DNA of 64,000 bases, taken from Medicago truncatula. Taxonomy: Eukaryota; Streptophyta; Magnoliopsida; Fabales; Fabaceae. This document shows positions 39,891-48,559 of the stretch, piece by piece. Positions within the stretch are counted from its first letter, which is position 1. Every line of letters begins with the position of its first letter. The notes beneath the pieces are model-generated. The model was not told where the DNA came from. It made no database searches and saw only the letters and a list, made by a program, of their open reading frames with translations. Where the stretch lies: positions 41,520,494 through 41,584,493 of the forward strand of contig NC_053045.1 in assembly GCF_003473485.1 (NCBI RefSeq), given 5' to 3'. The position numbers and the translations under genes are program-made.

Positions 39891-42686
39891 AAGATATTTA
39901 ATTAATTAAAATTATTTTGAACCAATCATTTTTCAAAACGTGGAGTGAGATGAACCCTTGATGTGATGTGTAACCAATCAAATTTCAAAATGTGGAGAAA
40001 TCTAGAGCAACTACATTTTATTTTGATGCTTCTTTCCGACAACATTACATTGGTGCCCATCATTTAGATTTTTATTTGTACGTTTTTATTTTGTGACTGA
40101 ATTTCAGTACTATATGAACTTTTTTATTTTGATAATAATGTAACTTTTACTTTTATAGGTTTCCATTTTTCACCTCAATTGCAGCAGGAACCTAGGGCCA
40201 GTCCCACTTTTTATGGGATGAGGTAGGATAACATATTTTATTTGGTGATGGGACAGAATTGACGTAAGTTTAGGGTCACTTTTTCTTGTCTCCTTTTTGC
40301 AAGGTAAGGAAGTGGAAGATGTGCATTTTTGGTAATTTTGTTTTCGCCTTATATTCTCATTATCATTAGAAAGTTAAAAAGATGAAATGTATTTGGTCTT
40401 CATTTTGTATTACATTAAAGTTAAACTTCTTAATTTCTTTTTAAAATACAAAGTACTAACAATTATGGAGTTCAAATTTTAGTTTTTTAACTTATAAATG
40501 TTGGAGTATTTGTTTAAATTGTTTAAATATATTTTTCAATCACCCAAAAAAATTGGGATGAATCACATACTAAGTCACTCTCTCTTTAATATTGTTTGTG
40601 ACATTGTATAAAATTGTGCAAATAAAATATCAATCACAATTTTTTATGGATAAAACAATTCAATTACAATGGAAGAAAAGAGAAAACTCAGAAATGCTTC
40701 TAGTCTTAGTGTATGTTGGAATGAGATGCAAACACCCTTTATATAGTGCGAAAACCGAAATGGAAATAAAAAAGAACGTCTAAGATCGAATGACCGTTGA
40801 GAAACAGACTTCCTTGATCAAAACGACAATTAAACTGGACGTGAAATGTATTGGATCGTGGAGCGTGCACGTGGGCGTATGTTCGGCACACATTGGTGTG
40901 TATCAAACGCATGCATGCTGCAAAAGGTGTCGTGGTGATTATGTACAATGAAACCAAAAATTCTAAAAAATAATCAACAAATTAACGTTCTGTGTTCTTA
41001 AACAATAATACACCACATAGCTCATGCCCAACCGAGCCAACAATGGCACGCTCGCTCTTGTGGTGGTCATATTCATTGCATCATCTCTTGTTTAAAAAAT
41101 TGAATACCCCCTTAGGACACACCCCGACGAAGCATACTTCCACTATATAAACATTAATATTGTGTGTAATCTTCGATATGTGGAACTTCTAGGATTTTTT
41201 CAATTCACATACGCATACATTGTGTTCCAACAATCAATCTAAATGTTTGGTCCTTTAGTTACAAACGATATAAATGACTAAAGTGTCTAACATTTATAAG
41301 TTTCCAAAGTGTATGTATAATGTTTGTAATTTTAAGGGCTAAAGAAGAAGAAGAAAAAAATGTAATGATGTTACTTAAAAGATCAAATTTAAAGGAAAAA
41401 ATTTAGATAACCAAAGGAAACCTAAACATAACTTAAAGGACAAAATAACAAAATTTGAAAAATTATTTATTAAGTAAATAATATGAAAATTGATGATAGA
41501 GAAAATCACACCAAAAAACGAAAACCTATTTTAGGGTTCGTATAAAAATTACTACTTTTGTGTAGAGGATTAGGACTGATTCAACATATAATACACTATT
41601 CTGCATGATGAAATCTCTTAATATATCCTAAGACAATCTACGAAAACTTTAAGAGAGGTTTATACAGGAAAATCTAAGCCTATAAATTTAAACGACCTCG
41701 TCTTTTAGGTTAATTGACGCTTCTTGACTTCTATATTTTATTGAAAGTTGTCTTAATCCCTTTGAATTGAAACATGTTACTGTTATTGTGTTCGTTAAAA
41801 CTTCTATGAACATATCGTTTTTACGAGGACACTTCATCTGTTGTTTTTATGCCGGTGATATGAGTATACGGTGAAAATATTTTTTTATCCATTAAGAATT
41901 TCATTCAGGTTTTGACTATTATAATTAACTATTATTATTAAAATATAAACAAGAACCATAACTTCAAAAATTTGGTCTAGTAATAAAATGACAATTAAAT
42001 TAGAGGTTTCGAATTTGAGCTCCACTAGAGTATTTGAATGGAGAAAAATGTAAATCTATTTGTAAGCGCTATTTGAGTCGAATATATCTCCTTCCTTAGA
42101 CTTAGGCATCCTCTCGTCCAAAAGTCCACATTGACACATTAATTATTCGAACATGAAAAAAAACGCAAAATATAGTCTAATAGTAAAAAGACAGTTGAAT
42201 CTAGATGTCATGAGTTTAAGCTCTGTCATTTATCTTTAGATAGAGTTAAATGTAATTTCGTTCGAAGATCTTCTCTTCTTATAAAAAACAAATTGACCCT
42301 TACAATTTTCAAAGTCATATTAATTATATTTTATAATTATACCATCTAAGTAACAGTGCAATGCACAACTCTAAATTCAATATCTAATACTTTATGTTTT
42401 TGGTAATGATAACTATATCAATATTTGATTAACATAATATAGCAAAATAATATTTATTCTTTCTTTTTTGGTTACTATTCATTCTCCTTCTTGTAGAACA
42501 TATTCCTCAACGGGGGAGGCTTAACTTCATAAACATTGGTACCCATCGATGGCTCATTGAGTAGAGGTGTTACTTTAAGCATCTTTTCTCTCAATGGATT
42601 CCACATCATATCATGTTGAAATAATGAAATATAATTATATAAAATTATTGACGGTCTCTATTTAAGAAATTTTTTGAGGTACATTA
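39891..42686. other. Gene-free AT-rich stretch with possible SINE-like pieces
   Basis: No protein gene recognised. At about 41966-42060 and 42170-42245 two related phrases, GTCTA[G]TA.TAAAA.GACA.TT followed by ATTTGAGCTCC or GTTTAAGCTCTG, look like diverged copies of one short repeat, perhaps a SINE remnant. The rest is unstructured filler. Confidence 0.4.
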
Positions 42687-43318
42687 GACCATCTATAATG
42701 GGGGAGTCCTTCCTCTATTTGACATCATGCTAAATAGACACTACTATTGTGACACCAATTAATATGGTGTTTGTAAAGATTAGTGCTTTTATAGGCGCAC
42801 TCTCTCCTATTACTCATGCGTCCTATATATATAATTAATTCTATTTTTTTCTCTATTCTATTGTTGTATTATTTTAATATTAAAAATTAAATTATATATT
42901 AGTTGCAAGAGTAATATTTAATTGATTAACATTAAATTTTCAACTGAAACTTTTTTTAAAAAAACAAATAATTTACCCATCTAAATGCAAAAACAAAAAA
43001 AAAACATACAATGATTGGATTTAAACAAAAAAAATATTTTACCGTCATTTATTTTACATTGTTTTTTCAAGTTTAAATTTTTTTTAAATTTATAATTAAA
43101 TTACTTCAATATTTTAAAATTGTATAATTATGAATGAATATATAAATTATTGTTAAAATCTAATGATATAGAGTTATTTCAGGGGCTCAATTAATAATTA
43201 TTTTGAGGTGCTGGGTTGGAGAGATTGGATGTTTATTAAGTATTAATTATAAAACGAATGACTTGTACAGTCGGGACCTGTTTAAGCACCCAAATGGAGT
43301 GCTGCATTGTGGATGGTC
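42687..43318. mobile_element. PIF/Harbinger-type MITE, 632 bp
   Basis: The terminal inverted repeat GACCATCTATAATG on the left and CATTGTGGATGGTC on the right are flanked by TTA on both sides (42684-42686 and 43319-43321), the target of PIF/Harbinger elements. Non-coding interior. The right TTA is also the left flank of the large Harbinger element that follows. Confidence 0.85.
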
Positions 43319-43624
43319 TTAGACCATTTACAATAGTTGAAAATTTTCAATAACCCTCAACACCCACTTTTTCAATTCCCAACACTCCACATCATTTTCT
43401 CTATCTTAATTCAACACTCATTCAATTTTTACCTCTCCAATGGTTTTTTCATTCAACTCTCTATCCCACCACCTTTTATTTCTTATTCTTATTTAATTTT
43501 ATAATTTTGTTTTATAATTATATAAAATTACAATTATCAATTATAATTAAATTAAAATAAAGATACACTTAACATTTTTTTTTGTAAAAACAAAATTTAT
43601 TTAAATAATTTATTTTTATTTGAG

Positions 43625-44500
43625 GAAGTCTAATTGATTTGACGAAAGTTGGATAAGAAGGGTAGATACCATCATCTAGATAGTATGTCATATTATAGGG
43701 ACGTTGATTCACAAAGTAATTCACCCTTGGAGCCTTTCCATGTTCCACATCATCAAAGACTCGTGACCGGTCTAGAACGTTTATATCGTTCAACTTTCCT
43801 GGACATCCAAAAAAGGCATGTCAAATCCATAGATCATGAGATGCAACTTCTTTAAGAATAACTGTTGTGTTTCCCTTATCCCCCCCGGTGAATTGACCTT
43901 CACATGCTGTAGGATAATTTTTCCACTTCCAGTGCATGCAGTCAATACTCCCGATCATCCCTGGGAACCCCCACATTTCACTAACATGTAATATTCTTTG
44001 CAGGTCATCTTGGGTTGGTGCTCTCAAGTACACTTGCTCATACAGTCATATGATTCCTTTGCATAATCTAAGTAAGCACTCCAATGATGTACTACTTCCT
44101 ATTTTGATGTATTCATCGACCGCATCTGCTGCCACACCATATGCTAACATTCGCATTGATGTGGTACATTTTGCTAACGGTGATATACCTTCTTTATTGG
44201 CTGCATCAAATCGTTGGGCGAAGTAGTTATCACTACTTGAATGGTCTCCAACGATTCGAAGGAAAACATGTTTTTGCATCCGGTACCGACGACGAAACAT
44301 TGCATCGTCGTATGTACGCTCATTGGCAAAGCAGTCGTCAATTAGTCTTTGGTTTTCCGCTGCATGATCTCTATTTAAATATTTTCTAGTACGAGATGCA
44401 CTACCTTCCTCTAATTTTTTTCAACGCTGAATAAATCGGTTGACGATATAAGTGACTTCAACATCACGTTTTTGGAAGTAGGCTTCGATATCAAAAGGGT
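43625..44500 (-). pseudogene. Harbinger DDE transposase, broken
   Basis: Pieces in order on the minus strand: DPFDIEAYFQKRDVEVTYIV, FRRRYRMQKHVFLRIV, GISPLAKCTTSMRMLAYG, SSTSLECLLRLCKGII, GFPGMIGSIDCMHWKWKN (first Asp), NDINVLDRSRVFDDV (second Asp), NMTYYLDDGIYPSYPTFVKS (third Asp). The expected ending with the conserved Glu and the final helices is missing: recognisable sequence stops near 43625 and TE-end sequence follows. In-frame stops after FIQR, after KGII and after HDLWI interrupt it. All stretches are in correct order, so this is a decayed full gene and not a rearranged one. Confidence 0.85.
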
Positions 44501-44895
44501 CCAATGAGAGTTTTTTTTGAAGTAGATATGAATGAAATTTGTGTAGATATGAGTCCTTATATATAAGTAAATTGTGTGGTGGACACTGACGGATTCGAAA
44601 TAAGTTATTGTATTGTATTAAAGCAAACAATGGAGATAATTATTAAAGCAAGCAAATAGTATGTGAAATAATGGGCACACAGTGAGCATAATTATTAAAG
44701 CAAATAATATGTAAAATAAGTCACAGGGGACTGAACAACACTAGGGACTATCACTGAGGACTAGACAACACTGTCAATTATTAAAGTAAACATTGGAGAC
44801 TAGACAACACTAACAATTATTAAAGTAAACATTGGGAACTAGACAACACTGACAATTTTGACCGAATACCAACAAATATTTGATTGAAATTAATT

Positions 44896-46026
44896 TCAAA
44901 ACAGCTCACGCTCCAACTCTTCCAACAACTCTTTTTTCCGGTCATCGAGATGCTCTTCGGAACTTAACTTTACATATAGTTTCAATTTCTTCAATCTGTT
45001 TTTCTCCTGTTGCACCAACGTGAACTCTTTCAATTGTTCAATCTCTTGCACCTTGATTTCTTTGAATTGAACCCACTCCTTTTCCACCTCCTCCAAGCCA
45101 GCAGCGTCCTTACTTTTCTTTTTACCTTTTCTTTTAGCTGCCTCCCTATCCATTGGACGAGCACTAGATCCTACAGAGTCCTCGTGAGATCTCTTAGATC
45201 CACTACTTTCTGACCCAACATTTCCTCCCATTTGACTACCATAACGTGGTTGATCACGGAGAGCGTGCCATTCTTCCTTTAAAGTAAATTGAACATTCTT
45301 CCCACATGCAAATAATTCATGCGCTTTTGCCAAAACATCATCTTCCGACCAACCGCTTCCTTGCAAACGCTTAGCGCTTTCATAAGCACCAATCCATTTA
45401 TTTATTACTTTGCTCATATAATTAAAATGATTTCGGCAAGCAATTACATCACGCGGAGGATCGAATGAGTAATGTTCATTACAATACTCAACAATTTTAC
45501 CCCAATATAATTCAAATTTTATCCACCCACTAATTAGCACCAGATTTTGTTCAGTGTTCCATCCTGGTTGCGGATTTCTCTTGCTCTTAGGAGTTGTATC
45601 CTCTGGAATTGGAATAACTTCATTAGCCCTTGTCATTCCACCACGATTTATTTGTGTTGAATATTCAGGATATTCACCAACATTCTGAAAATTGTCATTC
45701 ACCATTGACATATAACCATTAAATGGGGGTGTTTGAGATGGATATCCCATCATAGATCTATGATATGGATTAAAGTTGTTTTGAACAGAGGATGACTGAT
45801 TGAAATTTGATGCAAAACCAAAATTAGGAATGTTTTGAGGATGTTGATTGGGAATTTGATTTGGATTTTGAGGATGTTGGTTGGGAAAGTGATTTGGGTT
45901 TTGAAGATGTTGGTTGGGAAATTGATTTAGGTGTTGATAATTGTTGGGATTTTGGTAGCTAAATGGGTAATCAGAAGAATTTTGGGTGTTGAATTGATTA
46001 TTATTGAGATCCATTTCACTAAACAA
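44896..46026 (-). CDS. Myb/SANT-like ORF of the Harbinger element (NAM-associated C-terminal type), 376 aa
   Basis: Open from ATG to stop. Residues 1-135 are Asn/Gln/Pro-rich with a repeated NP.. FPNQH(P/L)QNPN unit. A trihelix/SANT-like DNA-binding region follows: GWNTEQNLVLISGWIKF, YWGKIVEYCNEHYSF, RNHFNYMSKVINKWIGAYES. Then comes a charged C-terminal half (REAAKRKGKKKSK, and a Glu/Lys coiled coil at about 310-376). Such proteins, often wrongly named glutathione S-transferase T3-like in databases, work with the transposase in Pong-like elements. Compared with relatives I remember, the helix region seems about a dozen residues short between WIKF and YWGK, so the product may be impaired even though the frame is open. 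Confidence 0.8.
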   Translation of the reverse strand: MFSEMDLNNNQFNTQNSSDYPFSYQNPNNYQHLNQFPNQHLQNPNHFPNQHPQNPNQIPNQHPQNIPNFGFASNFNQSSSVQNNFNPYHRSMMGYPSQTPPFNGYMSMVNDNFQNVGEYPEYSTQINRGGMTRANEVIPIPEDTTPKSKRNPQPGWNTEQNLVLISGWIKFELYWGKIVEYCNEHYSFDPPRDVIACRNHFNYMSKVINKWIGAYESAKRLQGSGWSEDDVLAKAHELFACGKNVQFTLKEEWHALRDQPRYGSQMGGNVGSESSGSKRSHEDSVGSSARPMDREAAKRKGKKKSKDAAGLEEVEKEWVQFKEIKVQEIEQLKEFTLVQQEKNRLKKLKLYVKLSSEEHLDDRKKELLEELERELF

Positions 46027-46540
46027 AGACTAAAACTTCAAAAGAAATGCTTTTAATAAGATTAAGATAGTGAAAAACTTGTTTTTTTTTCTGTGTCCAA
46101 ATCAAATGATCAAAGTCTCTATTTATAGAGAGAAAAAAATCACGAATTTTGGTAAAAAAAAAAAAAAAAAGGTTTAAATATGTAAAAGGTCTCTGTAAGT
46201 TCGCGTGTTTTTGGTTTTCGTCCTTGTATCTTTTTTTTTTCTAAAACAAACCCTGTAAGTTGTAAACATTTTGGTTTTAGTCCCTAACGTTAACATCTGT
46301 TAGAAAAACGCTTAGCTGGCAAACGGAGTCACACGTGGCAATCGCTAACATGGGAAAATACGCTTATGTGTACTGACAGATCGCAAGTGACTAGATTTGA
46401 GGGACCAAAACCAAAAACGTAAAATTGCAGAGGGATGAAATTGAAAAAACGTAAACATAAAAATTTAAAATTTAAAAACTAGATCTTCTTCATCTCTCTG
46501 ATTTTCCTTCTTCATCTCCGACCCCAATTTCTTCATCTGT

Positions 46541-47183
46541 GATGGAGTTCCTTTTCTCTTGAAATCCGGCAAAGCTCTTCATACTAAATGGTATGAAACA
46601 TTTCGTCTTTGTTTAGAAAAACTGCAACTTTTGAATTAGCTTTGCATTCTTTGGAATCATGAATTACAAAACATTCCACACACAAAAATGTATCAGTGCA
46701 GAAAGCAGAGTACAATTCAGACACGTCCCGGGTAACTTGTACAAGCGGAACTTTGGAACTAAGTTGGACAAAGTTACAAATGAGCTTGTGCTTCGTGTAC
46801 AACCTGATGAAGCTATATATTTGAAGATCAACAACAAAATTCCTGGTCTGAGAATGAGATTAGACAAAAGTGACATTAATTTTCTTTACGGATCAAGTTG
46901 TTAAGATCCTCTAGATATGTTCTTCACGGAGCTCGCTAACTAATCTAAATTCAAATGTGAAAGTTAACATAGTAGTAATACTATTAAATGCGAACGGAGG
47001 CTGTTCATCAGAAGTGATGAACTTGATGCAGCTTGGGCACTGTTCACTCCATTGCTAAAAGAAATTGAAAACAAGAAGATTGTTCCAGAGATTTATCCTT
47101 ATGGTAGCAGAGGACCAGTTGGAGCACACTACCTTGCTGCAAGGCACAATGTAAGATGGGGAGATGTTGGGGGCGATGAATGA
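46541..47183 (+). pseudogene. Captured fragment of a plastid glucose-6-phosphate dehydrogenase gene
   Basis: Three exon pieces on the plus strand: 46541-46590 (DGVPFLLKSGKALHTK), about 46702-46900 ([54 protein letters not shown]) and 46992-47183 ([48 protein letters not shown] then stop). FRHVPGNLY and the ending are those of plastid, not cytosolic, isoforms. Between pieces lie intron-like segments (GTATGA donor at 46591, GTGCAG acceptor at 46696-46701), so genomic DNA was copied and not mRNA. A segment around AYERLLLDAIEG is not visible, and the NAD(P)-binding half is absent, so no enzyme can be made. Confidence 0.9.
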
Positions 47184-47488
47184 TAAATGACTGACCTCTT
47201 ATGATTATAAGCATATACATTATCAGTTTCATATTTAGATTTATAGGATAGTTTTGTGCTTTCCTCACTATTCATTTTAAGAAGAATATTTCATGTAGAA
47301 TAATAGCAGAATTTATCATGTACTATATCTTGCACTTGCGGTGCTTTTAGTTGGAGGGGGCGAGGGGCATCTAGTTGATTTAGAATTATAACAAAATCAT
47401 ATATGCCTATATTTAAAGAAGATGCCAACTTTTTGTATAGCAATTTTTCTTCTAATTTTGTATAGCAAAATAATGAATAACGATTGAA

Positions 47489-47605
47489 GTAGACGCATTT
47501 GCTAACACTCCTCACCATGTTTCCATAAACAATTAAACGACGTTCAAAACTGTGTCCAACAATAAGAGCAGAAAGAAAAAGTAGACGCATTTGCTACCAA
47601 TTCCC
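47489..47605. repeat. Short direct repeat inside the Pack-MULE
   Basis: AGTAGACGCATTTGCTA occurs at about 47488 and again at about 47580, 90 bp apart. It may mark the junction of a second captured or duplicated segment. On the minus strand, 47600-47740 reads NSKMGIELFEEIERNKVKP, which is protein-like but unassigned. Confidence 0.5.
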
Positions 47606-48559
47606 CTTATGAACATCCTTTACCATATAAGCAGCTTTCTTAGTCTTCCCTTCTTTAAAATATAAGGTTTCACTTTATTCCTCTCTATCTCCTCAAAAAG
47701 CTCAATCCCCATTTTACTATTACCAACTGTTGTTAGAGATGAAGAAAATGAGATTGGAGATGAAGAAGAAAAAACAGAGATATGAAGAAGATCTACTTTT
47801 TAAATTTTAAATTTTGATGTTCATGTTTTTTCAATTTCATCCCTTTGCAATTTTGCGTTTTTGGTTTTGGTCCCTCAAATCTAGTCACTTATGATCTGTC
47901 AGTACACATAAGCGTGTTTTGCCATGTCAGCGATTGCCACGTGTGACTCCGTTTGCCAACTAAGCGCTTTTCTAACAGAGGTTAACGTTAGGGATTAAAA
48001 CCAAAATGTTCACAACTTACAGGGTTTGTTTTAGAAAGAAAAAAAAGATACAAGGACGAAAACCAAAAACACGCGAACTTACAGGGACCTTTTACATATT
48101 TAAGCAAAAAAATATATATATATATTTGCAATGAAATAATTGAGTCCAAATTATTAAGAAGATAAAAATCCAAGCAGCCAATCGTGAAGCAACACGTGTC
48201 ACTGCTTTATCCACAACTCATTCTCTCTCCGCGTATTCCTGCACGCGACGCGCCTTGTCGGCGCGTGCCTCACATGTGCCCTGCTTGGCAAATGGAAATG
48301 CGACGCGTGGCCCCTCCAGTCAGACTTTCAACATGTTTAAACCTTTCATCACCTCTTTCCTCTTCTCTCATTTTCAATAAGTCACTCCAATGATTTCAAT
48401 AGGTTGAAAATGACATTCAATAAGGTAGATGGTCTTAGAGTGATTGCGTGTTTATTAAATATTTTTATTAAGAAATTATAGATGTTGTTGTAGATAGGGA
48501 CGGCCCCACGTGCCAAGGCCCTCACTACTTTTTCTATTTTTTTTCCTTCTAATAATAAT

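Follow-up and report, generated by a model that had tools for sequence, protein, structure and literature searches.

At 46171-48105 of the window, a stretch of 64,000 nucleotides of Medicago truncatula DNA (C4:41520494-41584493), we found a two-gene chimeric Pack-MULE that carries pieces of a glucose-6-phosphate dehydrogenase (G6PDH) gene and of a pentatricopeptide-repeat (PPR) gene and lies inside a Harbinger element (Table 1). Searches covered the genome of 430 Mb in 42 contigs. The earlier note on this DNA had read the locus as a Pack-MULE inserted in a Harbinger transposon, and this reading is supported by the arm family, the uninterrupted paralogous sites, the duplications flanking two sister elements and the presence of the donor family elsewhere.

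Table 1. Features of the element, its captured fragments and its host (window positions)
Feature	Position	Strand	Remarks
Host Harbinger	43322..48434	-	Interrupted by the MULE; TTA at 43319-43321 and 48435-48437; ends by eye
Harbinger transposase pieces, two reading frames	43569..44033	-	PF04827
Second Harbinger ORF	44896..46026	-	Open; 376 aa if begun at TTG, 372 aa if begun at the ATG at 46014
Putative left target-site duplication	46162..46170	.	AAAAAAAAA; A-run; flanks and empty-site alignment
Left arm (terminal inverted repeat)	46171..46538	+	Starts GGTTTAAATATG; inverted-repeat search and alignment with right arm
G6PDH exon piece 1	46541..46590	+	DGVPFLLKSGKALHTK; 5′ truncated at arm
Captured G6PDH intron	46591..46696	+	GT and AG retained
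G6PDH exon piece 2	46697..46897	+	Includes FRHVPGNLY
Remnant of following G6PDH intron	46898..46976	+	TT in place of the parents' donor GT
Last G6PDH exon	46977..47186	+	5′-truncated; C-terminus and stop present
Captured 3′ flank of G6PDH gene	47187..47491	+	Part from 47380 also in sisters L052/L053
Captured PPR fragment, antisense	47487..47728	-	Donor C7:42422123-42422409 (L078)
Right arm	47737..48105	-	Last letters CATATTTAAGC; inverted-repeat search and alignment
Putative right target-site duplication	48106..48114	.	AAAAAAATA; flanks and empty-site alignment

The Mutator-like element and its Harbinger host

The element measures 1.9 kb (1,935 bp), with arms of about 368 bp each. Inverted repeats were found mechanically at 46174-46238/48039-48103 (98%) and at 46231-46538/47737-48044 (92%). 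Alignment of the left arm with the right arm gave 92.7% identity over 368 columns (K 0.078), and the inverted arms of about 350 bp described earlier do align as such. Their length fits the range of 100-500 bp that PMC4858842 gives as usual for Mutator-like elements (MULE), together with target duplications of 8-11 bp in which two mismatches are tolerated. The sister elements described below terminate in ...TTAAGCC, compared with the right arm end at 48105 in the window, and the true right end of the window element may lie at 48106, as in these sisters. When the whole element was searched against the genome, the 40 of 514 first-look candidates that were scored gave at least 104 matches, among which the window and the G6PDH loci are counted; further copies of the terminal inverted repeat, which the earlier note proposed to look for, are also among them, and the arms form a multi-copy family. 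The arms and the G6PDH and PPR pieces account for almost the whole 1,935 bp, and no transposase was recognised inside. Matches to the MULE transposase profile PF10551 are plentiful (150 of 923 candidates scored); set against the positions of the arms by eye, none could be linked to these arms as an autonomous partner.

In the host element, a Pfam profile search matched the two transposase pieces to PF04827 (E 4.8e-28 and 1.1e-26). The second ORF, for which no Pfam match was obtained up to E 1, is presumably Myb/SANT-like, as judged by eye. The host resembles PIF/Harbinger elements by its PF04827 transposase, its second ORF and the TTA on either side, and differs from them by its broken transposase frames and its interruption by the MULE. 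We observed that the 376-aa second ORF is open whereas the transposase frames of the same Harbinger are broken, and that the MULE lies upstream of this ORF, about 155 bp from its ATG. The right-flank search returned 41 rows, 20 of which were taken as loci (the window and 19 others), the remaining 21 rows being left out. All 19 Harbinger loci outside the window aligned across the joined flanks (46170|48106) without interruption, and the joint was viewed base by base in 13 of them. With the PF04827 pieces and the flanking TTA, these copies running through the insertion point (19 of 19) bear out the location inside a Harbinger. The two putative target-site duplications of the window match at 8 of 9 positions, or at 7 of 9 if the element is one base longer; located in an A-run, this duplication is weak on its own. 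Two further Harbinger-related stretches were observed nearby. The first (42684-43321) is shorter, and its ends, TTAGACCATC...GATGGTCTTA, resemble those of Harbinger by eye; it adjoins the host element on the left and has a TTA in common with it. The second, L058 at C4:41483028, is another copy of the host family (right flank, 91%) and precedes the window by about 37 kb on the same contig.

The captured fragments and their donors

The two longer G6PDH exon pieces matched PF02781 (E 6.8e-12 and 7.8e-12), and the best solved-structure match, 6jyu_A (E 3.8e-07), confirmed G6PDH in general. The G6PDH homology begins no more than 3 bp from the end of the left arm, and 46538-47459 (with L049, at C8:4.91 Mb) or 46538-47491 (with L050 and L051, G6PDH copies at C8:18.35 and 20.69 Mb) aligned at 86-91% with these three C8 loci. 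Both results bear out the three exon pieces that had been recognised from the letters. The gaps between them had been called intron-like: the first is indeed an intron with GT and AG, but the second is a mere intron remnant, because a deletion at 46976|46977 (283 bp relative to L049, 280 to L050 and 279 to L051) removed the 3′ part of the intron together with the 5′ portion of the last exon. Since exons, introns and 3′ flank align alike with the three loci, the fragment was copied at the DNA level rather than from a spliced transcript, in agreement with the earlier claim of capture from genomic DNA.

The 283-bp deletion, the loss of the splice donor and the truncation at the arm leave the fragment dead as G6PDH, and a functional enzyme is ruled out accordingly. 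In the coding part, comparison with L049 gave dN 0.059 and dS 0.143 (NG86), with 14, 4 and 16 differences by codon position. These unequal positions and a dN below dS could hint at past constraint, in an earlier constrained phase of the fragment; as the constraint of the parent itself contributes partly, we do not take them as function.

G6PDH was copied repeatedly on C8, with copies at 4.91, 18.30 (C8:18299300-18300933), 18.35 and 20.69 Mb. L050 and L051 are 99.1% identical over 3,962 bp and have in common a 5-bp frame-breaking exon deletion, absent from the window and from L049; they look like pseudogenes, and this deletion rules them out, in their present form, as the parent. Profile coverage failed to separate the C8 copies: positions 2-295 of the C-terminal domain profile were almost fully covered at both L049 and L050. 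At sites where L049 differs from L050 and L051 (the latter two being identical), the window sided with L049 at 19 and with L050/L051 at 21, so that no single C8 parent is singled out and the window copy branched off before the split of these loci. The donor lineage is the small C8 G6PDH family, and the capture predates its duplication. Kimura distances at noncoding sites between the window and L049, L050 and L051 were 0.111, 0.125 and 0.128, respectively. Alignment to the G6PDH genes of the genome, by which the earlier note expected to find the parent copy, has thus located the family and its distances but not one parent.

At the protein level, exon piece 2 showed 87% identity with C8:4.91, 78% with C8:18.35, 78% with C8:20.69, 79% with C7:7.68 and 55% with C7:52.9 Mb. 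The G6PDH loci at C6:8.2 and C7:14.0 Mb were absent from the matches of this search (6 of 6 candidates scored). The fragment may belong to the plastid group, a label drawn mainly from sequence motifs; the genome comparison shows only which G6PDH loci it groups with.

The second captured fragment, of PPR type, had been overlooked in the earlier note, which was made from the sequence only. A search with 47464-47736 found four places (4 of 4 candidates scored): the query itself, the two sisters and the C7 donor, which lies inside an open frame of 570 aa that matches PPR profiles strongly (PF13041, E 1.3e-86). The alignment with this C7 gene contains 53 gap positions in 291 columns, with 87% identity at the 238 aligned bases (K 0.143). 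The G6PDH and PPR homologies overlap at AAGTA (47487-47491), a micro-homology joint. Since this PPR stretch was captured besides the G6PDH stretch, the element is a two-gene chimera, and several donor genes in one element are known for Pack-MULEs.

Two sister elements with a different left half

Two sisters of the window element were found, L052 (C1:50.27 Mb) and L053 (C8:49.58 Mb), identical to each other at 97.7% over 1,553 bp, up to the element ends. From 47380 to its right end the window matched them at 95%, with K 0.038 in the inner right half. The part common to the sisters and the window comprises the remnant of the G6PDH 3′ flank, the G6PDH/PPR joint, the PPR piece and the right arm, and a stretch of 80 bp within it has 89-90% identity with the C8 G6PDH locus as well. 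In contrast, the left arms of the sisters showed only 69-71% identity with the window arms, and their left half matched a different MULE, L081 (C8:27.75 Mb), at 87.7% over 780 bp. A third fragment, present only in L052 and L053, resembles L082 (79%) and L083 (70%). The MULE at about C8:27745600-27748128 (L081/L084) in turn contains an inner piece that resembles C3:35377262 (L082, 79%).

Each sister is flanked by a 9-bp duplication, AAGTAATAA/AAATAATAA for L053 and AAATTTAAA/AAATCTAAA for L052, both matching at 8 of 9 positions by eye and thus within the two-mismatch tolerance given in PMC4858842. On the simplest reading, a hybrid of two elements was formed, by a route that these comparisons only suggest, and then moved; two copies at separate sites, each with its own 9-bp duplication, argue that the hybrid still moved. 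Comparable is the Pack-CACTA model outlined in PMC13317346, where hybrid elements form from neighbouring elements. L052 and L053 similarly join the left and right ends of two elements around captured DNA, but they are MULE, their ends are only about 70% alike, and their formation is reconstructed from alignments. That MULE ends of clearly different arm families, about 70% alike, can be joined into a working transposon, and that the L052/L053 hybrid moved at least once after its formation, is a proposition for and against which we see equal weight.

Order of events and origin of the element

The earlier note had placed the capture before the insertion into the Harbinger; the divergences favour this order, short of proof. 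This Harbinger differs from the three copies measured, among 19, by K 0.056-0.067. The captures (K 0.11-0.14) look older than this spread of the Harbinger and also seem to precede the separation of the element copies (K 0.038), as far as distances, which are not a clock and were taken at different loci, allow a rough ordering. The G6PDH/PPR joint is, in addition, present at C1 and C8.

The opposite order, in which the MULE entered the Harbinger first, gained its fragments in place and later seeded the C1 and C8 copies, appears improbable. The window was the one place where G6PDH exons turned up between MULE arms (6 of 6 candidates scored), so that the sisters could derive from the C4 copy; the distances to the G6PDH loci (0.111-0.128) and to the PPR gene (0.143) nevertheless exceed those of this Harbinger from the three copies measured (0.056-0.067).

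We consider it quite unlikely that the locus is a regulatory element whose transcripts, across the arms or antisense to PPR, give rise to small RNAs acting on the parent genes. The arms are 92.7% complementary, the G6PDH piece is in sense and the PPR piece in antisense orientation, and in rice, according to PMC4858842, 24-nt small RNAs map to the arms and insides of MULE. However, the pieces have diverged from their parents by about 9-13% at aligned bases, leaving few long perfect stretches, and their coding parts are decayed. An ordinary segmental duplication, or a pseudogene lying between repeats by chance, is hardly credible: a duplication of about 4 kb does exist among the C8 G6PDH copies, but the homology of the fragment starts no more than 3 bp from the end of the left arm, two unlinked genes lie between the arms and 19 of 19 Harbinger copies are uninterrupted at the site.

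Very probably, a non-autonomous MULE captured G6PDH and PPR DNA and moved repeatedly, one copy entering the C4 Harbinger and another lineage hybridising. The element would have gained a G6PDH stretch (3′ exons, introns and 3′ flank) by copying at the DNA level, and a PPR stretch would have been gained as well and joined to it at the short shared sequence, between two similar arms. We suppose a gap-repair or template-jump step here, while the pieces and the joint can be read off directly. The packed element would then have moved more than once: one copy would have landed in the A-run on C4, upstream of the Myb-like ORF and about 155 bp from its ATG. Another copy would have given rise to a lineage in which the left half was exchanged for the end of a different MULE, the resulting hybrid reaching C1 and C8. 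The G6PDH and PPR pieces of the window are most likely passengers in decay that serve no coding function.

Pack-MULEs are known from Jiang et al. (2004), cited in PMC13317346 and PMC6446971, the former of which counts more than 3,000 Pack-MULEs with fragments of more than 1,000 genes in rice. The window element resembles them in its long arms, the lack of a recognised transposase inside and the gene fragments copied with their introns. It differs in nothing essential, having taken the 3′ end of one gene and sitting in another transposon. In the excerpted literature on Pack-MULEs or Medicago Mutator-like elements we met no description of this element, and a literature search combining Pack-MULE and glucose-6-phosphate dehydrogenase gave no match.

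Pack-MULE capture is a known kind of event, and the hybrid sisters are the most interesting side of the locus. It is a clean case of a plant Mutator-like element that captured pieces of two genes, and its donors, its sisters and the uninterrupted sites all lie in one genome. The sisters further suggest that elements swap halves, a point relevant to the origin of multi-gene Pack-MULEs: if true, the exchange of halves between packed elements would be a route to multi-gene Pack-MULE chimeras.
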